This document shows positions 1,836 through 11,670 of a DNA stretch of 24,682 nt, piece by piece (within the stretch, counting starts at the first letter, position 1; each line of letters starts with the position of its first letter). Position numbers and translations under genes: made by a program. Source of the stretch: a virus; the IMG/VR virus record IMGVR_UViG_3300025897_000084, positions 1 to 24,682 of that record; one strand, given 5' to 3'. A model generated the notes under the pieces. The model was not told where the DNA came from. It searched no databases and saw nothing but the letters and a program-made list of their open reading frames with translations.

Positions 1836-1985
1836 ATGAAAGGTTTAGGCGACGCTGTCGAGAAGGTCACGAAGGCCACGGGAGTCAAGTATGTTGTAGA
1901 CAAGGTGTCTCAAGCTACGGGCAAGGATTGCGGCTGCGGTCGGCGCAAAGACAGTCTAAACCGTCAATTCCCATTTGGTAAGTAA
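1836..1985 (+). CDS. Small protein with CGC motif, Bacteroidota-phage type
   Basis: A 49-residue protein from ATG 1836, preceded by an AGGGG that may act as a weak Shine-Dalgarno. The N-terminal two thirds (GLGDAVEKVTKATGVKYVVD) look helical; the end carries DCGCGRRKDSLNRQFPF. A short helical leader followed by CGCxxRxxxLNxxFPF recurs in small proteins of Bacteroidota phages, as I recall; role unknown. The adjacent Cys-Gly-Cys could be a metal or disulfide site. The stop overlaps the next gene's start (TAATG, 1983-1987). Confidence 0.7.
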   Translation: MKGLGDAVEKVTKATGVKYVVDKVSQATGKDCGCGRRKDSLNRQFPFGK

Positions 1986-2440
1986 TGGCATATCAGAAAC
2001 TACAGGTCGAGCGTGCGCTTACGGTCATCGCCAGCGATACGATTAACATCCCGAATGTTGCTGGGCCTTCGGTTAGCGGCACCACCGATGGTGTTACGGC
2101 AAACAAGCTTGTTGACAGCACGGCTTCGTTCACCAGCAACCTACTCGGCTACATTGTGTACAGCGGCATTCAGGTAGCTACGGTTACGGCTGTTGACGAC
2201 GCAAACACGCTTAGTCTCAGCGCGGACATTATGGCCAGCGGCGAGGCGTACACGCTCTACGCCGACGACAATAACGGTTGTGTGCTTTACGTGGGCAATA
2301 CGGGCAACGTGCGCGTTTTGACCGCTGGCAACGACGATGTTACGTTTGTGGGCATCCCTGCCGGCGCTTTCGTTCCTGTTCAGGTCAAGCGTGTTTTCGC
2401 TACGGACACTGACGCCACGGATATTGTAGCCCTATGGTGA
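1985..2440 (+). CDS. Head spike-base-like structural protein
   Basis: A 151-residue protein. The N-terminus (MAYQKLQVERALTVIASDT) and the C-terminal 40 residues (GNVRVLTAGNDDVTFVGIPA, then VQVKRVFATDTDATDIVALW) match the layout of small virion proteins related, as I recall, to the spike base protein of the Rhodobacter gene transfer agent (RCAP_rcc01079 type), which end with xxVxATxTxATxIxALW. Between them, at residues about 29-92, sits an inserted beta domain with NKLVDSTASF, GYIVYSG, VATVTAVDDANTLSLSADIM and EAYTLY; a related insert occurs in the protein at 21197. Likely a capsid decoration or appendage-base protein. The family link is from memory, and the role is inferred. Confidence 0.65.
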   Translation: MAYQKLQVERALTVIASDTINIPNVAGPSVSGTTDGVTANKLVDSTASFTSNLLGYIVYSGIQVATVTAVDDANTLSLSADIMASGEAYTLYADDNNGCVLYVGNTGNVRVLTAGNDDVTFVGIPAGAFVPVQVKRVFATDTDATDIVALW

Positions 2441-2441
2441 T

Positions 2442-2600
2442 ATGCCTATTCAGATAAGCATATCTAACTGCATTGGCAACGCATCATTAGTGGGTGGCGG
2501 ACCGCCTCCCGCAGAAACTTTCTACCTTCTCCTTGAAGACTCAAGCAGAATATTATTGGAGGACGGCGTGTCCTTCCTGTTGACACAAGCGGCACCATAA
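2442..2600 (+). CDS. 52-residue protein with LLLEDSS/LLEDG repeats
   Basis: ATG 2442 starts one base after the preceding stop, and the stop overlaps the next start (TAATG). The 52-residue product has a small N-terminal beta-like region, a GGGPPP linker at about residues 18-23, and two short repeats, YLLLEDSSRI then LLEDGVSFLL. Short LLxEDG repeats are common at the ends of phage appendage proteins; here they form almost a whole gene. Possibly a subunit connecting the flanking virion proteins (inference). Confidence 0.55.
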   Translation: MPIQISISNCIGNASLVGGGPPPAETFYLLLEDSSRILLEDGVSFLLTQAAP

Positions 2601-3142
2601 TGGCGGACCAGAAGATTACACAGCTACCAGCCCTTGCTAGTGCGGCGAACATTGACGTTATCCCCATCGTCGACATCGCTGGTAACGCTACCAAAAAGAT
2701 TGAGGTACAAAACCTTGTCCCTACTGTCCCCACGTCAAACACTATTGAGGTCGGGACGCTTTTGGCTGCGGGCGATTATGGTATTGGTTCTGACCTTTTC
2801 GTTACTGCCACACAGGTGGTTACCGCTGGCGAGGGCTACGCGTATGGCGCCTCGGGCTGGGTTTCTTGTAACGCCACGAGCTTGGGCACCTCGGCCACGG
2901 GGCTTTTGGGTATTGCTACTTCTTCTGACGCAGCCGACGGCGTACTTATTCGCGGAGCTGTGTATTTGGCCACCGACCCCGGTGGCGCTGTTGGAGACAA
3001 CGTGTACTTGAGCACCACTCCCGGTCAGCTAACCACCACTCCTGTTGCTTCTCCAAATAATGTATCTCGCGTTGTAGGGTACAAGCTTGCCACCAACACA
3101 ATTTTCTTTGACCCATCCAAGGATTGGATTGAAATCAGCTAA
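2600..3142 (+). CDS. Virion fibre/decoration protein
   Basis: A 180-residue, Ala/Gly/Thr-rich beta protein. Residues 1-40 carry KITQLPALASAANIDVIPIV and NATKKIEV, a common N-terminal module of phage head- and tail-fibre proteins that also begins the protein at 10157 in related form. The C-terminal 110 residues contain VTAGEGYAYGASGWVSC, GLLGIATSSDAADGVLIRG, GDNVYLST and a final FFDPSKDWIEIS, and match in order the C-terminal domain of the 514-residue fibre at 5865 (GDVLYVGT...YFDPSNDWIVLV). So this gene is a short form built from modules used elsewhere in the block. Exact receptor or attachment site unknown. Confidence 0.7.
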   Translation: MADQKITQLPALASAANIDVIPIVDIAGNATKKIEVQNLVPTVPTSNTIEVGTLLAAGDYGIGSDLFVTATQVVTAGEGYAYGASGWVSCNATSLGTSATGLLGIATSSDAADGVLIRGAVYLATDPGGAVGDNVYLSTTPGQLTTTPVASPNNVSRVVGYKLATNTIFFDPSKDWIEIS

Positions 3143-3144
3143 TC

Positions 3145-4344
3145 ATGGCCAGTATATCAGGACAGAGTACAGCCAACATCGACCAAGTCGACGGGTTCTT
3201 CACCACTCAGGGTAGTGGTGCTTTCCCGAATGCAGTTCTTAGTTCGACGGGGACTCAAATAGCTTATGTCGGGTCGTTTAAGTACAACAACACTCTTAGT
3301 ATTGATTTTACCCGGTCGCCTGTAGCCCCTTACACTTTTGTTTCTATGGCGGGGTCTGCTGCTTATGCCCAAGTAATGGGGGTAAGGGATGACGGCACCC
3401 TCTGGGTTTATGCAACTACGGGCTCTTGGATTAATCAGATGATTACCCCCGGAGGTAGTCTGAACCAGTGGTTTCAATACGGAACTGATACGGACTGGGA
3501 GCAGGTGGAAAATGCGCAAAACGGCTGGGGGTTTATTAAGAACGGGGAGTATTGGTATGTTGGCTATGGCCCCTTCGGCCTGAGGGGAGACGGCAGCACT
3601 ACTACCATAGGTGCGCCGGTCATGTGCAATAACTCGTTCACTTGGACCAAGCTCGCGTTTGGGTCTACGCACGGAGCCCTTCTTAGTAGCACGGGTGAAG
3701 TTTATACCACCGGACAGAATAATGATTATGGTACCGGGTTAGGCGTAAACACCGGCACTACGACGACATGGACTAGGGAATCTTCCAGTCTTACTTCGGT
3801 GTCTGATATAAGCTGCGCCTATCGGACGCTGAAGATTATTGTCGCGGGAAATGTGTATACCACCGGGGCCAACAATTTTTTGAACTCCGGTCCACTCGTT
3901 GGCGGGGGGGCTATAAACGGTCCGCTCTTGTCCTATAACGGGGGAGACATAGATAAGATTTTTGCTGGACGGGATTTTACCGTGGGCTTTACTAGCTCCG
4001 GGGCCGTCCGTCATGCGGGCTCCGGTTTCGGGAAGCGCCTTGACAATATCTCCACCAACCTTACCGGGCAGACTGGCCAAGCTAACGAGCAGTTCACTCT
4101 GCTTACTGCTGCTGGCAACGGGTGGACTCATTTCGCCCCTTCCAACGTAACATCTTCAACATCTGTTTGTCAGATGGCGATTCAGAACGGAGAGGCTTAC
4201 GCTAGTACTGACGCCTTATCCTCTATGTGGGACACTCCTGTTGTCAGCAAATATGGGCGTGTTGGGACATCTACGAATGTCGTACTTGTTTTCGCGGACT
4301 GGAACTCCACCTCCGGCGCTAACATGGGATTATCAATATCATGA
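3145..4344 (+). CDS. RCC1-like beta-propeller virion protein
   Basis: A 399-residue protein with an N-terminal IDQVDGFFTTQGSG (residues 12-25) of the kind that begins phage appendage proteins. From about residue 62 to 375 it consists of repeats of roughly 50 residues with the RCC1-type pattern: aromatic/hydrophobic residues, then a His or Gly turn, then LLSSTGEVYTTGQNNDYGTG. Clear units: 117-150 (WGFIKNGEYWYVG), 167-200 (HGALLSSTGEVYTTG), 217-250 (IIVAGNVYTTGANN) and 269-300 (TVGFTSSGAVRHAG), with degenerate units around 62-108 and 325-375. Six or seven blades would close a propeller. RCC1 propellers bind protein or carbohydrate partners, so a receptor-binding or capsid-surface adhesion role is likely (inference). 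The next gene starts in its stop (ATGA). Confidence 0.7.
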   Translation: MASISGQSTANIDQVDGFFTTQGSGAFPNAVLSSTGTQIAYVGSFKYNNTLSIDFTRSPVAPYTFVSMAGSAAYAQVMGVRDDGTLWVYATTGSWINQMITPGGSLNQWFQYGTDTDWEQVENAQNGWGFIKNGEYWYVGYGPFGLRGDGSTTTIGAPVMCNNSFTWTKLAFGSTHGALLSSTGEVYTTGQNNDYGTGLGVNTGTTTTWTRESSSLTSVSDISCAYRTLKIIVAGNVYTTGANNFLNSGPLVGGGAINGPLLSYNGGDIDKIFAGRDFTVGFTSSGAVRHAGSGFGKRLDNISTNLTGQTGQANEQFTLLTAAGNGWTHFAPSNVTSSTSVCQMAIQNGEAYASTDALSSMWDTPVVSKYGRVGTSTNVVLVFADWNSTSGANMGLSIS

Positions 4345-4583: not shown

Positions 4584-5872
4584 TGCCTATACCTCCCGGA
4601 ACAAAATTTCATGGCGTTGCTCCCGGCGTTGAAACAGAAAATAAAGGCTCATCAACTCGCAATGCCGAGCGTGATGCGTATACAATTGAAGAGTTTGGCG
4701 GTGGCGGCGGCGGCGTTTTTGACACCGATATTCTTTACAACCTAACTAACGGACACACGTTTGGTCGCCTTTCTGGCAATGGCACCTATCCAGTGGGGGA
4801 GTCGGGCATTACCGTCACTGATTTTATTCGTGACGTCTTGATTATGCAGAGCGCCACATTCAGCGCCACACCTATCCCGGCTTGGGAATACAACCTAACA
4901 ACAATTGACATCAATGTTGTGTGGCAATATAGCGGGGGCGACAATGCAACTTTGGTTCGCCGAGTTAATGACGGTACTATCGAGGAATTGCAGACGGGCA
5001 TCCCTCCGGGCAGCGGGTCTTTTTTAGACACGACCCTTCCTACGTTTCCTGAGTTTGTCATCAACTACGTTTACTACTATTTGAACGTATTTGATGCTGA
5101 TGGTAATCAGCTTTTGCAGGATGTTGCTATTGCTACCCAGCAGGCATATATAGTGCCCGCTGTTACTACTACCGTTACAGCGGACAACAGCGGTAGGTCT
5201 CCTGACGAGACGGCTCTTATCCGCGAGTGGGGCAATGACTTGAGCTCCATTGAGGGTGTCGGCACTAAGATTTCCACTTATGTCCCGATGACAGAGCTTC
5301 GCGTATATCGCGGAAATACTGAGCTCTCCTCTGTTGTTATCACCGGAGACCCAAACAGCGAGACCCTCGTTGTCTCTGGAGACAACCCGGGCAGCCCTAC
5401 TACCAACTTTGTTTATGCAACTGAGGTTTCTGACACACAGAGCGATAACGACGGTTTGCAGTTCGCCAATAAAAGCACTGACCAAACCGTCTCTATGCGA
5501 CCTCCAATGCTGTTTGTTGGAACTTCTGACACTGGTTCTAGCCCCAGTATTGCTCAGGATATTTACGATTCTTACAGCACACCCACAGACGGGTACTTCA
5601 GGTTGTTCGAGGGGGAGTTTGCTGACACCTTCTCCACCCCGTCAAGCATGCAGAATTTCAGCAACTACGCTTGGATTCTTTACGACAGCTCCCTTGGTGA
5701 CGAAGAGCTTCGTCAAGGCGGACCTACCGGTCCCATTGTAAACTTTGATGACTATGGGACCCATAGTGTTGTCAATGATTTCGGTGTAACTGTTTCTGTC
5801 CGACTTTTCCGGTCTCCATTTACTGGGCCATTTTCTACAGGGACAAACTTCTATATCTCATCTAATGGCTGA
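4583..5872 (+). CDS. Virion appendage protein with MPIPxGTKFHGVA N-terminus
   Basis: A 429-residue protein. Residues 1-38 repeat the N-terminal block seen at 1084 (MPIPPGTKFHGVA, GSSTR, ERDAYTI), followed by a poly-glycine hinge GGGGGG at about residues 40-45. The rest is a long, Asp/Thr/Ser-rich beta region containing Ig-like stretches (IDINVVWQYSGGDNATLVRR, FVINYVYYYLNVFDADGN) and a segment around 160-300 with repeated short strands. There are no catalytic motifs. The architecture of docking peptide, flexible glycine hinge and elongated beta domains fits a fibre or tailspike-like appendage. The C-terminus overlaps the next gene by 8 bases. Confidence 0.65.
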   Translation: MPIPPGTKFHGVAPGVETENKGSSTRNAERDAYTIEEFGGGGGGVFDTDILYNLTNGHTFGRLSGNGTYPVGESGITVTDFIRDVLIMQSATFSATPIPAWEYNLTTIDINVVWQYSGGDNATLVRRVNDGTIEELQTGIPPGSGSFLDTTLPTFPEFVINYVYYYLNVFDADGNQLLQDVAIATQQAYIVPAVTTTVTADNSGRSPDETALIREWGNDLSSIEGVGTKISTYVPMTELRVYRGNTELSSVVITGDPNSETLVVSGDNPGSPTTNFVYATEVSDTQSDNDGLQFANKSTDQTVSMRPPMLFVGTSDTGSSPSIAQDIYDSYSTPTDGYFRLFEGEFADTFSTPSSMQNFSNYAWILYDSSLGDEELRQGGPTGPIVNFDDYGTHSVVNDFGVTVSVRLFRSPFTGPFSTGTNFYISSNG

Positions 5873-7409
5873 ATTTCCAGACCTACTAATCAACCCGAAT
5901 CCTAACGCTCCCACTCTGGACGCTTCGGGTAACCAAGTCCGTGGAATCAATATTTTTGAGACTACTGCTGAGCGGGACGCATTAAACATTACGGTTCGTA
6001 TCCCGGGCGCTTTGGCTGTCATCAAAAGCTCTGATGAGCTTTATCAGTACACTGCCACCACCGTCGATGATACGGCTTGGCAAGACGCAAACAACTGGTT
6101 GGGAATCGGCTCTGCCGGTGGTGCTGGTGTACAGAACCTGAATAACCTCAACGGCAATGTCACCCTTACGGAAGGGACGAACATTACCCTTGATGTAATC
6201 ACGGGCAGCAACGAGATTGAAATCTCCGCTGCTGCTGGCGGCGGCGTCACTGACGTTACGGGTGCGGCTCCTATTACGTCTACTGGCGGGAACACTCCTG
6301 AAATCGGCATCGACAACGCCACCCCTTCTGCCGACGGAGCCATGAGCGCGGCTGACAAGACTAAGCTCGACGATATCGATATCACCACCCCTGCGGCTGG
6401 CGAGGTCCTTATCTACGATAGCGTTGCCGGAGTCTTTGAGAACGCCACCCTTACTCAAGGGACGGGCATAAGCATCACCAACGGTGACGGCTCTATCGAA
6501 ATCGCAGCTACGGGCGGCGGCGGCGTATCCTCCGTTGAAGGTCTTACTGGCGCCCTTACTCTCGCCGGTGCCGGCACGGTTGCGGTCACTGACAACGGCA
6601 ACGAGACCATCACCATCACCGGTTCTGGTGCTACCGACCTCGATAGCCTTACCGATGTGACCATTAGCACACCGAGTGCGGGGCAGATTCTAATCAATAA
6701 CGCCACGACGGGGCAATTTGTGAACGCCACCCTTACGGAGGGGACGAATGTCACCATCACAGAGGCAGATGGGAGCATCACCATCGACGCTGCGGGTACG
6801 GTTACTTCTGTCACTGTCGATGGCGGCACGGGCCTCACCTCTACGGGTAGTCCCATCACCGGCTCTGGCACCATTACTGTAGACCTTGACAACACGGCAG
6901 TGAGTGCGGGCGCGTATACCAACGCCGATATCACAGTCGACGCTCAGGGCCGCATTACGGCGGCTGCTAACGGTACCGGCGGCGGCGGCACCACTGGTGA
7001 GAAGCTAGACTTTACGGCACGCACCACTGCGTATGCTGCTGCCGGAGACCACGAGGGTACCGACCTCAAGATTGGCGGTGCCGCGAGCGTTACCGTGGGG
7101 ACAGCATACTACTGGAACGGAGACTGGGCTGCTGCGGACAACACTGCTGTAGGCACCTCTACGGGTATGATTGCTGTGGCTACCGATACGGGTACGGCTG
7201 TAAACATGATGAAGGACGGCATCATCCAGCTTGCAGCTAACCCTGCCGGAGCTTCTGCTGGCGACGTCCTCTATGTCGGTACCAGCGGCGCCCTTACTAT
7301 TACAGCCCCTACGGGCGGCGGAGACATAGTCCGGGTCGCCGGATATACTATTGATGCCGCCGGACTTATTTACTTTGACCCCAGTAATGACTGGATTGTT
7401 CTTGTGTAA
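5865..7409 (+). CDS. Repeat-rich phage fibre protein
   Basis: A 514-residue protein, very rich in Gly, Thr, Ala and Asp and poor in Cys. Residues 30-80 hold a small N-terminal module (TAERDALNI, ALAVIKSSDELYQYT, DTAWQDANNW). Residues 90-380 are a fibre shaft of repeated elements: ATLTxGTNxTI at about 99, 194 and 288, GGGVTDV/GGGVSSVEG before strand pairs, and YTNADITVDAQGRITAAANG at 351-370. Residues 380-514 form a C-terminal domain shared with the protein at 2600 (GDVLYVGT, VAGYTIDAAG, YFDPSNDWIVLV). Likely a trimeric head or tail fibre (inference from composition and modularity). Starts inside the previous gene; stop overlaps the next start (TAATG). Confidence 0.75.
   Translation: MAEFPDLLINPNPNAPTLDASGNQVRGINIFETTAERDALNITVRIPGALAVIKSSDELYQYTATTVDDTAWQDANNWLGIGSAGGAGVQNLNNLNGNVTLTEGTNITLDVITGSNEIEISAAAGGGVTDVTGAAPITSTGGNTPEIGIDNATPSADGAMSAADKTKLDDIDITTPAAGEVLIYDSVAGVFENATLTQGTGISITNGDGSIEIAATGGGGVSSVEGLTGALTLAGAGTVAVTDNGNETITITGSGATDLDSLTDVTISTPSAGQILINNATTGQFVNATLTEGTNVTITEADGSITIDAAGTVTSVTVDGGTGLTSTGSPITGSGTITVDLDNTAVSAGAYTNADITVDAQGRITAAANGTGGGGTTGEKLDFTARTTAYAAAGDHEGTDLKIGGAASVTVGTAYYWNGDWAAADNTAVGTSTGMIAVATDTGTAVNMMKDGIIQLAANPAGASAGDVLYVGTSGALTITAPTGGGDIVRVAGYTIDAAGLIYFDPSNDWIVLV
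6161..6746 (+). repeat. Three imperfect direct repeats in the fibre shaft
   Basis: Copies CACCCTTACGGAAGGGACGA (6161-6180), CACCCTTACTCAAGGGACG (6446-6464) and CACCCTTACGGAGGGGACG (6728-6746), about 285 bases apart. They encode the TLTxGT motif of successive shaft units. Near-identity at DNA level over 19-20 bases suggests the shaft grew by duplication and could change length by recombination. Confidence 0.75.
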
Positions 7410-9322
7410 TGGGGTGTATTAAGAGAATAACGAATAAACCTACTGGCGTTGATAGTATAAGTTCTATCAATGGAACTCCCAGAGTTGATGCTGATTCATA
7501 CTCTGGAGCTGACTTTTGCAGTGCCCCATTTGTTTTTTCAATTGATACAACTCTTGGTGACGCAACAAACACCTTCATAGTCCCTATGGGCACGCCCTCT
7601 CTTCCAACTCCAATGGTAATTGATTGGGGGGATGGCTCGCAGACAGTTCTTCCAAGCGGACCGAGCTCCGTGGCTGACATGACACATACATACGCGTCAT
7701 CGGGAACTTATGATATTTCTATAGATGGACGGATTAGAGAGTTTTGCAGGCTTGCACTGGATAGCACCCACATACCCAAGATAAACGACGTAAAAAGTTG
7801 GGGCAACAATTTCGATGGCGGCAGCAATCTTGAAGGTTGTATAAACATAACAACGATTACGGCCATTCTCGGTCCGGATGCCGACCTTTTCTCGGATTTT
7901 TTCAGTGGATGCACAAACTTTAATCAAGACCTTCCTTTTTCCGCTATGGATACATTGAGTATCGGGAGCTATGAAAGTTGTTTTAAGACATGCACTAGTT
8001 TTAATGGTGATTTAAGCACTTGGAACCCTAACGGCATTGCTATCAATATGGATTTCATGTTTTCAGGATGCGACGTCTTCAATAACAATAGTATAACCGG
8101 GTGGGATGTAAGTGGGGCAATCTCACTTAATAATATGTTTCGGGGTAGTTCTCAGTTTAATCAAGACCTTACGGGATGGGATGTAAGCTCTGGTGCTAAT
8201 CTTGAGTTCATGTTCGCAGAGACCCCTATGGAACCAATAAATGTTAGCGGATGGGTGTTTAAGGACGGTGCAGCCGCCAAGCATCTTTTTGCTGACACTT
8301 GGCTCTTAGGTACTACTGTTCCAGACTCGTTTGTTCAAGGTATTATTGATTGTGTGACTAGCCTTGATACACCCCAACAAGGTGTTAATGTAAACGCTTC
8401 TCTTTGGTGGCTTGTTGGGGCCAACGCCTTTGCGGAAATCTCATTCTCCAGAGGAGAATACCCCAGTTTTGAGGCAGCATTCAATAATCTGCTTAATGTT
8501 AAGGGATGGGCGAACCGTCCGGTGGAATTTGCCCTCGGCTTAAAGATGGAGATAGACACCAATCTTGGCTCTATAAGCCCCGACGTTATTAGTTGCAGTT
8601 ATGGTACTATAGACTGGGGGGATGGGGGTTGGGAAAGGACTGACGGGACCGGGGGTAACCAAGTCCGGTCGCACACATATAGTTCTAATGGAACGTATAC
8701 TGTTGTGGCAGCGGGACCACCGACCACTGGCGGTGTGAGGCCCGTCACCCGCTCCGCTAATGTGACATTCCCAGAAGTAACTAGGGTTCTTGACGCTAGT
8801 TCTATAAGCTTAACTAACAACCAGCTTATAAATTTTTGGTACTGTCCAAACCTAATATATCACGACCCAACTTTTTTGGATAACAACACCCTTAGGACCA
8901 CTCTTTCAGGTTACCTGAGGAATTGCGCCTCTTTCAATGGCGATGTTACTGGTTGGAATATTTCTATCATAAACAATTTCAACAGTTGTTTCAAGGAATG
9001 CACTGCTTTTACCGGCATCGGCTTAAACAGTTGGACATTTAATAACGGTGACAATATTATACAGATTCTTTGGGATACAGCGGTGGGTTTATCACCGGCT
9101 CTTGCGGCTAACATGATGATTGACTGGAACGCAAACCCTAATCAAGGGACTGGAGTAGACTGGGGCTTTTGGGTTCCCCCTATAACCTTCAGTCTTAGTG
9201 CTACAGTAGCCGTAGATGGATACGATGGGGCCGCTGCTAAATCTGCTTATGACAATTTGATAGCAACCACCGGCTCAGGAAAGTCATGGTTTGGGAGTAC
9301 ATTTTTTACTTGGAACCCATAA
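7409..9322 (+). CDS. Adhesin-like virion protein: two PKD-like + DUF285/BspA-like repeat units
   Basis: A 637-residue protein built as two similar halves. Each begins with a PKD-like strand pair around IDWGDG (residues 71-76 and 401-406) ending THTYASSGTYDI or SHTYSSNGTYTV. Each then carries short repeats of the BspA/DUF285 (bacterial surface protein 26-residue) type: FSGCTNFNQDL, CTSFNGDLSTWN, FSGCDVFNNNSITGWDVS and FRGSSQFNQDLTGWDVS in the first half; CASFNGDVTGWNIS and CTAFTGIGLNSW in the second. Each half closes with a helical segment, AAFNNLLNVKGW and SAYDNLIATTGSGKSW. DUF285 repeats are known from bacterial adhesins, so a receptor-binding role is likely (inference). No signal peptide is seen. 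The gene is A/T-richer than the packaging genes (38% GC over 7441-7500). Confidence 0.75.
   Translation: MGCIKRITNKPTGVDSISSINGTPRVDADSYSGADFCSAPFVFSIDTTLGDATNTFIVPMGTPSLPTPMVIDWGDGSQTVLPSGPSSVADMTHTYASSGTYDISIDGRIREFCRLALDSTHIPKINDVKSWGNNFDGGSNLEGCINITTITAILGPDADLFSDFFSGCTNFNQDLPFSAMDTLSIGSYESCFKTCTSFNGDLSTWNPNGIAINMDFMFSGCDVFNNNSITGWDVSGAISLNNMFRGSSQFNQDLTGWDVSSGANLEFMFAETPMEPINVSGWVFKDGAAAKHLFADTWLLGTTVPDSFVQGIIDCVTSLDTPQQGVNVNASLWWLVGANAFAEISFSRGEYPSFEAAFNNLLNVKGWANRPVEFALGLKMEIDTNLGSISPDVISCSYGTIDWGDGGWERTDGTGGNQVRSHTYSSNGTYTVVAAGPPTTGGVRPVTRSANVTFPEVTRVLDASSISLTNNQLINFWYCPNLIYHDPTFLDNNTLRTTLSGYLRNCASFNGDVTGWNISIINNFNSCFKECTAFTGIGLNSWTFNNGDNIIQILWDTAVGLSPALAANMMIDWNANPNQGTGVDWGFWVPPITFSLSATVAVDGYDGAAAKSAYDNLIATTGSGKSWFGSTFFTWNP
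7619..8518 (+). repeat. Internal repeat, copy 1 (PKD-like + DUF285-like unit)
   Basis: Codes for residues about 71-370 of the adhesin-like protein. Order of landmarks: IDWGDG, HTYASSGTYD, four FNxDLxxW-type repeats, a VNASLWWLVG segment and a closing AAFNNLLNVKGW. The second copy at 8609-9319 shows the same order with fewer repeats. Similarity is at protein level; DNA identity is low, so the duplication is not recent. Confidence 0.6.
8609..9319 (+). repeat. Internal repeat, copy 2 (PKD-like + DUF285-like unit)
   Basis: Codes for residues about 401-637. Landmarks: IDWGDG, HTYSSNGTYT, two FNGDVTGW/FTGIGLNSW repeats, a GTGVDWGFWV segment matching VNASLWWLV of copy 1, and a closing SAYDNLIATTGSGKSW. 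Shorter than copy 1 because it has fewer DUF285-type repeats. Confidence 0.6.
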
Positions 9323-9323
9323 A

Positions 9324-9467
9324 ATGGAGCTTCAGTATATTTACCATGCGCCTCGGCACAATTCCTACACTCGGGTGTGTAGGGTGCCTGAGTACGAAAA
9401 GAACGCGGATGTAGCATGGGCGACACCATTACCATATTCGAAATCCTCACGCTCGCGGGGGCGCTGA
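9324..9467 (+). CDS. 47-residue hypothetical protein (possible)
   Basis: ATG 9324 begins one base after the adhesin gene's stop and runs to a TGA inside the next gene, overlapping it by 52 bases. The product starts MELQYIYHAPRHNSYTRVCR and ends in a Ser/Arg-rich tail that lies in the overlap. It fills an otherwise empty 93-base gap, and its position follows the tight spacing of the region. No family is recognised. The large overlap keeps confidence low. Confidence 0.35.
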   Translation: MELQYIYHAPRHNSYTRVCRVPEYEKNADVAWATPLPYSKSSRSRGR

Positions 9468-9625
9468 TAGGCGTGTACTTCAAGATGCTTACCGAGGTGG
9501 GGAAATTAAAAGGCCGCATCGCCATGCTGGAGAAGCAGGAAGCTACCGTTATGAATATGCTCGAGAAGCTTGTCATCTCCGTAGAGGAGATTAAGCTCTT
9601 GCTGGCACAGAAAGGCATCAATTGA
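9416..9625 (+). CDS. Membrane protein with coiled coil; holin-like or lysis accessory candidate
   Basis: A 69-residue protein: one hydrophobic helix near residues 7-23 (IFEILTLAGALIGVYFK) followed by a heptad-like helix to the end (VGKLKGRIAMLEKQEATV, MLEKLVISVEEIKLLL). A single N-terminal membrane anchor plus a coiled-coil tail is the arrangement of several phage lysis accessory proteins (XhlA-like, holin-associated), and the endolysin gene begins inside its stop codon. Function is inferred from topology and position; no specific family is claimed. Confidence 0.65.
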   Translation: MGDTITIFEILTLAGALIGVYFKMLTEVGKLKGRIAMLEKQEATVMNMLEKLVISVEEIKLLLAQKGIN

Positions 9626-9975
9626 AATACTTCACCTACTCCGAGTTCGACTCCCCCGACCTCCCCGGCTCCGGCCATGAGATGCAACAGGAGTTTTTGG
9701 ATAAGCTGGATTTGGCTCGTGGGTACAGCAATGTACCCTATGTCATCAACTCCGGGTTTCGGACGCCTGAGCACAATGCTGCTGTGGGGGGCGTCCCGGG
9801 AAGCAGCCACCTCACGGGCTGGGCCAGTGACGTGCGTGCCGACAGTTCCAACCGCCGGTTCCTGATTTTGAAGGGCCTCCTCGAGGCCGGCTTCAACCGC
9901 ATAGGTATAGGCCAGAACTTCATCCACGTCGACTGCGACCCGAGCAAGTCGGGCAGCGTCGCTTGGTTGTACTGA
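9622..9975 (+). CDS. Endolysin, M15 family zinc peptidase
   Basis: A 117-residue protein of the peptidase M15 (D-Ala-D-Ala/L-Ala-D-Glu carboxy- or endopeptidase) type, cleaving peptide cross-bridges of peptidoglycan at the end of infection. Visible motifs: SGFRTPEHN (residues 44-52), SSHLTGWASD (61-70) giving zinc ligands H63 and D70, and FIHVDCD (100-106) giving H102 and likely catalytic context. The start is a TTG overlapping the upstream stop (TTGA); KYFTYSEFDS directly after it is the usual N-terminus of this domain, which supports that choice. There is no signal peptide or cell-wall binding domain, so export would need a holin. The length is that of a single catalytic domain. Confidence 0.9.
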   Translation: MKYFTYSEFDSPDLPGSGHEMQQEFLDKLDLARGYSNVPYVINSGFRTPEHNAAVGGVPGSSHLTGWASDVRADSSNRRFLILKGLLEAGFNRIGIGQNFIHVDCDPSKSGSVAWLY

Positions 9976-9993
9976 ATTGTGTAACTTGGTTCC

Positions 9994-10155
9994 ATGGTTG
10001 ATTTCATCACAGAAAACTGGATTCCCCTTCTTGTGGCCGTTATGGCGCTCATCAAGGTCATCGTGAACCTCACCCCAACGGACTCCGACAATGCTGTATT
10101 TGGCTATCTCGATATCCTTATTACTGCTATTACTGGCGACCGCCGTAAGAAGTAA
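9994..10155 (+). CDS. 53-residue membrane protein of the lysis region (holin candidate)
   Basis: A protein of 53 residues: FITENWIPLLVAVMALIKVI makes one membrane helix near residues 4-25, followed by VNLTPTDSDNAVF, a second moderately hydrophobic stretch (GYLDILITAI) and a basic end GDRRKK. Small proteins with the helix-then-NLTPTxxDN pattern lie next to M15 endolysins in Bacteroidota phages, as I recall. A holin or holin partner is the natural inference. Stop 10153-10155 lies just before the next gene's ATG (10157). Confidence 0.6.
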   Translation: MVDFITENWIPLLVAVMALIKVIVNLTPTDSDNAVFGYLDILITAITGDRRKK

Positions 10156-10156
10156 G

Positions 10157-11446
10157 ATGGCTAAGATTAGTAACATAACGAGTTACCCGAAGAAGACCTC
10201 TCCGGTAGGCGCGGACACGGTTATCGGCACCGACTCTCAAGACGGGAATGCTACCAAGCAGTTTCCTGTCTCGGGTATCATCAATGCTGTTGCCACTGGC
10301 GGCGGTGTGGTCACTTCTGTATCTGGGTCTGGGCCCGTCAATGCTACGCCAACTAGCGGCGATGTAAACGTCACTCTTAACACCGTACCGAACGTAGCGA
10401 ACACGTATCAGTACGCGAACATTGATGTAGACCAGTACGGTCGTGTTGTTAACGCCTATGACGGCACCCCCGTCACTTCAGTCAATGGCATTGACGGCGC
10501 CGTTACACTCAGCGCCGGGGACGGGGCGAGTGTTGTTATTGACCCGGCTGACCCGCAGAACATTATTATCTCCAGTACTGGTAGTGGTGGCAGCGGCAGC
10601 GTCACGCAGGTAAGTGCTGGCGGCGGAATTGAAACAAGCCCTGCTGGGGGCATTACCACAACAGGTACTGTTTCTTTGCAGGATTTTGGTCCCGGTCATG
10701 CTGGTAGCTACAACAACGCTGACATTACCATTGACCAATATGGTCGTGTCATATCCGCATCGGACGGCGACGGCCAACCGAACCAAGACTTGCAGTCCGT
10801 CCTCGACACCGGCAATGTGTCTACTACGGGGATTGTTCTTGACAACACCGGCATCACTGCCTTGCAGGGCGCAGGTGTTTTTCAGGACATAACGTGGAGC
10901 GCGGTAGGCGATGGGTACAACCTATTGCTTACTAACGAACTGTATCTTCAGCGTCACCTAAAGGACGCCTTCGGTAATACGGGTACGTACCAGCAAATTC
11001 TTATTTCTGACCCAAGTATTAATGGTGGCCAAGGCGGGGTACAGTGGGTAGACCAATCGCTTCTCACCCTGCGAACTCAGATTCCTGCGGCCACTATCGC
11101 TACGATGGGTCCAGTTTCCGGCCCTCAGCTTCTCCCACCCCCGGGAGTGGGTGTTGCGATACAGGTTATTGCCGCTGCTTTTTCTTATAGCTACGCAGCG
11201 CCTGTTTATTCGTTTGCTGCCGGAGGGTTAGACTTCGGGCTGTATACCAACCCCACGACCGCTCAGTTTACGACGCCCGCCTCCCCCCTTCAGGTTCCTG
11301 CATCCTCAGCTAATAGCATGAGTCAAACCCCATCGGCTACTCTTGACGGCAACCAAGCCTTGAACTTTTTTCTGGCCGACGTTGTGACGGCGGCTGGTGG
11401 GGGAAACATTAATCTTGACATCACCTATAAGCTTGTAGCGGTCTAA
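10157..11446 (+). CDS. Modular head/tail fibre protein
   Basis: A 429-residue protein. The frame extends upstream to 10091, but ATG 10157 follows the preceding stop and gives an N-terminus (MAKISNITSYPKK, ADTVIGTD, NATKQFPVSG) like that of the protein at 2600, so it is preferred. The shaft contains two copies of YxNADITIDQYGRVxxAxDG (about residues 86-103 and 185-204), also found in the fibre at 5865, and VTSVNGIDGAVTL. Residues about 330-429 form a separate beta C-terminal domain (VIAAAFSYSYAAPVY, LDFGLYTNPTTAQFTT, NINLDITYKLVAV) that may be the receptor-contacting tip (inference). TAATG overlap with the next gene. Confidence 0.7.
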   Translation: MAKISNITSYPKKTSPVGADTVIGTDSQDGNATKQFPVSGIINAVATGGGVVTSVSGSGPVNATPTSGDVNVTLNTVPNVANTYQYANIDVDQYGRVVNAYDGTPVTSVNGIDGAVTLSAGDGASVVIDPADPQNIIISSTGSGGSGSVTQVSAGGGIETSPAGGITTTGTVSLQDFGPGHAGSYNNADITIDQYGRVISASDGDGQPNQDLQSVLDTGNVSTTGIVLDNTGITALQGAGVFQDITWSAVGDGYNLLLTNELYLQRHLKDAFGNTGTYQQILISDPSINGGQGGVQWVDQSLLTLRTQIPAATIATMGPVSGPQLLPPPGVGVAIQVIAAAFSYSYAAPVYSFAAGGLDFGLYTNPTTAQFTTPASPLQVPASSANSMSQTPSATLDGNQALNFFLADVVTAAGGGNINLDITYKLVAV

Positions 11447-11670
11447 TGCGGGACATCCGCAAGATTTGCGTGGGTCCCGACTATAAGGACTCCATGTGTT
11501 ACGTGGTGGGGCAGGCCGTACTGGGCAACTCCCACTTCGTACACCTAATAAAATACAACGAGGATACGGGGGGTATCTGCATATACATTGAAAAAGGGGA
11601 GGTGGTTATCCTGTGGAAGGAGTTCAATGCCTCTATGCCCATTTCAATAGAATACAATATCAACTTTTGA
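11446..11670 (+). CDS. Small conserved-type phage protein (IEYNINF C-terminus)
   Basis: A 74-residue protein: MRDIRKICVGPDYKDSMCYV, then GNSHFVHLIKYNED, then ICIYIEKGEVVILWKEFN and a C-terminal MPISIEYNINF. This order (ICVGPDYKD, VGQ, HLI, IYI, LWKEFN, MPISIEYNINF) is one I recognise from Bacteroidota and crAss-like phages upstream of the packaging genes; function unknown. Mostly beta by composition. It overlaps its neighbours at both ends (TAATG at the start, TTGA at the end). Confidence 0.75.
   Translation: MRDIRKICVGPDYKDSMCYVVGQAVLGNSHFVHLIKYNEDTGGICIYIEKGEVVILWKEFNASMPISIEYNINF

Follow-up and report, generated by a model that had tools for sequence, protein, structure and literature searches.

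Here we describe a podovirus gene whose 637-aa product combines PKD domains and DUF285 repeat arrays in two successive units, and which sequence comparison shows to be an exchangeable cassette. The gene is carried in the window, by which we mean the whole 24,682-nucleotide stretch of DNA that was analysed, a 24.7-kb viral fragment of an incomplete genome. Its product is probably a tail-appendage receptor-binding adhesin of a podovirus with Bacteroidota as its probable hosts, virion location, receptor binding and host being what we infer. Cassette replacement beside a fibre gene in near-identical phages is the usual signature of host-range determinants, and the swapping of phage receptor-binding proteins is classic.

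For the terminase, the P22-like portal and the structural proteins of the window, the matching PHROG families are those of head and packaging. Terminase identity is 75% with podovirus ctfjg026 (MW202828), 45% with Flavobacterium Elemovirus phages and 37-38% with Cellulophaga phages. The window belongs to a marine-type podovirus related to Bacteroidota phages, and because of the kinship of its terminase to those of the Flavobacterium and Cellulophaga phages a Bacteroidota host is likely. Upstream of the terminase, the 637-aa gene forms part of a fibre block, in the following arrangement:

5865..7409, plus strand: putative tail fibre directly upstream of the 637-aa gene, with its N-terminus (~130 aa) conserved and the remainder variable in relatives
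7409..9322, plus strand: 637-aa protein with two PKD + DUF285 units, cassette A (ORF, Pfam, half-versus-half alignment)
7409..7516, plus strand: N-terminal segment, residues 1-36, of low confidence in the model and with no hydrophobic core
7526..7729, plus strand: unit 1 PKD-like domain, residues ~40-107, IDWGDG at 71 (PF00801 stretch 72-105; strands mostly pLDDT >90)
7901..8296, plus strand: unit 1 DUF285 array, ~4-5 repeats of 25-27 residues, residues ~165-296 (PF03382; LRR-like solenoid in the model)
8324..8524, plus strand: unit 1 C-terminal cap region, two helices, residues 306-372, common to other members of the window's phage family
8534..8710, plus strand: unit 2 PKD-like domain, residues ~376-434, IDWGDG at 401 (PF18911 stretch 402-433)
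8900..9076, plus strand: unit 2 DUF285 array, ~2 repeats (PF03382 at 8900-9067)
9095..9319, plus strand: unit 2 C-terminal cap region (alignment with the unit 1 cap)
9322..10264, plus strand: conserved stretch between the two swapped cassettes (comparison with contig L008)
9622..9975, plus strand: M15-type peptidase gene, probable lysis gene and positional anchor of the slot (PF08291, 2.8e-13; kept beside the slot)
10264..11452, plus strand: cassette B, a second exchangeable region, the body of a 451-aa putative fibre (10091-11446)

The order of fibre (g5865), variable slot, small gene (g9416), M15 peptidase (g9622), fibre B (g10091), small genes and terminase is kept in relatives, and this conserved synteny agrees with the first-pass annotation, which had placed the gene among virion-appendage genes. 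The stop codon of the upstream fibre (5865-7409) overlaps the start of the 637-aa gene (TAATG), as it also does in the relatives L178, L016 and L043. The neighbouring fibre genes have weak or no family matches. Two of the putative fibre genes, at 5865-7409 and 2600-3142, have in common a C-terminal domain of ~100 residues ending in FDPSxDWI, which suggests a common tip or assembly domain. The fibre block also encodes a 399-aa protein (3145-4344) with RCC1-type beta-propeller repeats (PF13540, 3.2e-9); its homologue in L016 is 40% identical while backbone genes are 80-94% identical, making it another variable surface candidate.

The reading frame of the 637-aa gene is intact from ATG to TAA at the position first annotated, and a viral contig with an identical gene (L001) and close homologues elsewhere support its reality. 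The two PKD + DUF285 units that had been proposed from the sequence were recovered by Pfam. PF03382 (DUF285) matches in three stretches (E 8e-31; 106.7 bits against a gathering cut-off of 25), which correspond to 7892-8089 and 8045-8263 in unit 1 and to 8900-9067 in unit 2. The PKD match (E 1.3e-6) comprises two stretches each for PF00801 and PKD_4 (PF18911), both above their cut-offs (28.7 against 23.5 and 27.7 against 27, respectively), with the IDWGDG motif at residues 71 and 401. The two halves of the protein align with each other at E 6e-12 across PKD domain, repeats and C-terminal cap. As had also been noticed, their repeat numbers are unequal: by visual count unit 1 has ~4-5 repeats, each of 25-27 residues, and unit 2 has ~2. 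An HMM of the repeat built in this analysis scores four in the whole protein. Of the original "BspA/DUF285" label only the second half stands: LRR_5 (PF13306, BspA-type) is absent among Pfam matches up to E 1, and DUF285/TIGR02167 (PARCEL) is not the Pfam family of the classic BspA LRR_5, although NCBI-style annotation calls DUF285/TIGR02167 proteins "BspA family" despite their separate Pfam family. TIGR02167 itself was not reported for the 637-aa protein at E 0.01, whereas the relatives L043 and L021 pass its cut-off.

Unit 1 (residues 1-372) was modelled with an alignment of 64 units. The model has a mean pLDDT of 78.4 and a pTM of 0.78, and consists of a strand-rich PKD domain (mostly >90), an irregular solenoid in which regular secondary structure is scarce, and a two-helix cap. 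The LRR-like fold anticipated for the repeats found favour with one structural aligner and not with another. Foldseek against the PDB gave nothing significant (best E 0.24), but the rows shown by a second aligner were essentially all LRR proteins (Z 9.5-11.7), headed by TpLRR of T. pallidum (Z 11.7, rmsd 4.3, 203 residues) and including a Bacteroides caccae surface protein (4fd0, Z 9.7). Repeat proteins reach high Z values easily in structural alignment, and because of this and the non-significant Foldseek result we regard it as likely rather than proven that the modelled array is an LRR-like solenoid joined to the PKD domain. Among predicted viral proteins there were 50 structure matches under E 0.001, many of them named PKD or BspA family. 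A PDB search by sequence returned no matches. A single-sequence AlphaFold model of the full protein (pLDDT 33) was set aside as unusable, and seven aligned sequences were too divergent to be searched for patterns.

The case for exchange comes from contigs that are nearly identical to the window. L008 has a backbone 97-98.5% identical to that of the window and a terminase 99% identical, yet its slot holds an 892-aa DUF285 protein unrelated to the 637-aa one, together with a small ORF of ~95 aa. The two DNA sequences become similar again at base 9322, where the stop codon of the 637-aa gene ends. Cassette B, ~0.9 kb downstream of cassette A, is also swapped between window and L008 (10264-11452), the second putative fibre keeping its N-terminal 58 codons while its body is exchanged. 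A further contig, L002, pairs the cassette A of the window (zero mismatches in the 205 codons covered) with the cassette B of L008, to which it is 99% identical over 5.3 kb starting at the stop codon of the 637-aa gene, so that the combinations A1B1 (window, L001), A1B2 (L002) and A2B2 (L008) all occur. Judging by these contigs, cassettes A and B appear to assort, with crossover in the conserved genes between them. L002 is a metagenome contig and could conceivably be a chimeric assembly; six variants (9856-9912) found in neither the window nor L008 speak against a chimera, and the replacement seen between window and L008 is independent of L002. The GC content of the 637-aa gene (44.9%, compared with 52.5% for the window) is compatible with separate ancestry of the cassettes.

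The 637-aa gene shows a feature expected of phage receptor-binding proteins, allelic replacement in a conserved slot of near-identical phages, and the role in cell recognition first proposed for its product gains indirect support from this swapping. Swapping of this kind might also be seen in some other exposed protein that changes fast. It is unlikely, in our judgement, that the protein, though carried on the virion, binds targets other than the receptor for infection, such as extracellular matrix or particles, making encounters more frequent and leaving specific recognition to fibre B. PKD-DUF285 units are found in large surface-type proteins of many lineages and the phage has two separate fibre cassettes, both in keeping with such general stickiness, but wholesale replacement in near-identical phages is better explained by host-specific selection.

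More distant relatives show that the slot is conserved while its occupant is not. When contigs were fetched via the terminase alone, five of the seven showing the slot held a DUF285 protein there and two held unrelated proteins; the five proteins (892, 484 partial, 329, 499 and 645 aa) are very different in sequence. Contigs fetched with DUF285 queries give further members, but this sample is biased by the query. Across 50 related records, many of them fragments, a DUF285 match was found in 7. Complete DUF285 proteins of the slot carry 2-10 repeats recognisable by our repeat HMM. The 637-aa protein is 62% identical to its counterpart in L178, against 91% for the terminase and 94% for the portal, and 35% identical to that in L043, against 95% for the backbone. 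The L043 homologue, a double-unit protein of 645 aa, differs from the 637-aa protein by whole 25-residue repeats, unit 2 having two extra and unit 1 one fewer; repeat number, which had been noticed to differ between the halves, thus also varies between related phages. DGR-driven variation of the slot is unsupported, as the reverse transcriptase PF00078 is absent from 7 related records.

Several further observations were made on these records. In L178, the closest relative by cassette A (62%), the M15 peptidase is missing from its usual place (9175-9687; no tblastn match). Inserted into the 892-aa slot protein of L008 (632-3310), in several copies, is a short domain (STATF...VxSxTxLxL) that is also present in a 151-aa protein of the window (1985-2440). 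Viral contig L124 (4896-10478) has about eight tandem small DUF285 genes (150-240 aa) between two very large ORFs, which looks like a multigene surface-protein array. A 157-aa Elemovirus protein beside the peptidase gene (L007, 11501-11974), called "DUF285 domain-containing" in RefSeq, gave no PF03382 or NCBIfam match and was not used as evidence.

The composite PKD-DUF285 unit is widespread in cells, often in tandem. We compared 64 units in an unrooted tree with many long branches; 44 of them are cellular, from Bacteroidota, Balneolota, Myxococcota, Actinomycetota, archaeal bins and others. The first units of the window, L178 and L043 group together (97/91), as do their second units with L118 (98/94), and because each unit thus groups by its position in the protein the duplication is old, preceding the divergence of these phages. 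Units of the phage family lie apart from all cellular ones (96/89 for ten rows; all eleven together in 82% of bootstraps). The first-pass annotation had raised an exchange between phage and bacteria; as a recent event this finds no backing, whether as transfer from bacteria or more generally, since no recent host-phage exchange of units is visible in the 64-unit unrooted tree.

A close cellular parallel is found in PKD + DUF285 adhesins of marine Bacteroidota, such as that of Aquimarina spongiae (L127), which has the same PKD-DUF285 unit in tandem, six units in a 2234-aa ORF. This bacterial protein differs in carrying a Por secretion C-terminal sorting domain, and in the tree the units of the phage family group separately. 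The signal peptide and the anchoring or sorting signals of bacterial surface adhesins were not found in the 637-aa protein: in agreement with the original annotation, no signal peptide is visible by hydropathy (the N-terminus is charged and residues 1-35 have no hydrophobic core), and the Pfam search gave no sorting domain. These observations bear on whether the protein might be directed at cells rather than built into the virion, for instance set free when the cell lyses, or exposed on the host so as to change its surface or keep out other phages. The secreted, Por-tailed bacterial relative and the position of the gene two genes upstream of the M15 peptidase gene would suit such a function. 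Given the missing export signals, a start codon that overlaps the stop of a fibre-like gene here and in L178, L016 and L043, and swapping of the kind seen for a fibre, we consider it quite improbable.

DUF285/TIGR02167 (PARCEL) surface proteins are known from Mycoplasma, Listeria and Bacteroidota, and PARCEL repeats spread with mobile DNA (Roske et al. 2010, PMC2996958). The 637-aa protein resembles them in its 25-residue repeat family, tandem arrays, variable repeat number and association with mobile DNA; unlike them it has no visible signal peptide or lipoprotein/sorting signal and sits in a phage fibre block. The repeats could in principle be PARCEL elements themselves, selfish palindromic coding repeats that spread through genes with no selected binding role, as the described horizontal spread of such repeats with mobile elements (PMC2996958), the relatives that pass TIGR02167 and a match of the 637-aa protein to the PARCEL-named model NF045896, below that model's cut-off, might suggest. 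We regard this as highly improbable. A proxy for the MEME test of the original paper showed no palindromic excess in the repeat-coding DNA, reverse-complement 8-mers being no more frequent than in synonymous shuffles; the two-unit order and the unit-specific clades have been kept over long divergence; and recent exchange acts on the whole gene, not on repeats.

Phage proteins of this type are less unusual than the first-pass annotation implied. GenBank already holds 89 phage records with matches to the 637-aa protein, structure libraries contain PKD or DUF285 phage proteins, and DUF285-type proteins in phages have been noted before (PMC7765460). Arrays of DUF285 type, some with PKD, occur in Synechococcus phage S-SKS1 (M4QPG4), Sphingomonas phage PAU (gp103), Aeromonas phages LAh10 and D3 and Vibrio phage pir03; these proteins are ~20-35% identical to the 637-aa protein and belong to other, mostly large-genome phage groups. 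In a limited literature search we found mostly incidental annotations, no claim of DUF285 or BspA-type phage receptor-binding proteins, and no instance of a DUF285/PKD phage protein for which assorting cassettes provide a natural experiment. That phages encode PKD + DUF285 proteins was known already; the evidence from assorting cassettes is the new part. Conserved flanks, sharp breakpoints and unrelated alleles in near-identical backbones are likewise found in modular phage receptor-binding proteins, with their conserved anchor and exchangeable tip; those have a beta-helix spike or lectin-type tip, whereas the exchanged body here is an LRR-like/PKD protein.

In the receptor-binding model that we favour, the 637-aa protein would probably be made together with the fibre at 5865-7409, as the overlapping stop and start codons suggest, and would be placed at or near the tip of that fibre. 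The PKD domain of each unit may serve as a spacer or stalk, and the exposed surface of the LRR-like DUF285 solenoid would bind a ligand on the host surface, either glycan or protein. Host specificity could then shift by whole-cassette replacement through recombination in the flanking conserved genes, by gain or loss of whole repeats, and by sequence change within repeats.

Although many phages encode DUF285 proteins, their annotation seldom goes beyond "hypothetical" or "BspA family surface protein". The swapping of DUF285 cassettes among near-identical phages is the evolutionary signature of a receptor-binding protein; it points to a specific function that can be tested and offers a means of locating comparable cases in other phages. 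More tentatively, and as a possibility to which we give modest weight, marine podoviruses may generally use DUF285 LRR-like arrays as an evolvable scaffold for receptor binding. Exchange of whole cassettes, together with the acquisition or deletion of entire repeats, would then generate diversity in a manner loosely comparable to lamprey variable lymphocyte receptors, which are likewise built from repeats. A receptor-binding role for the 637-aa protein would add an LRR-like fold to the usual folds of phage host recognition.
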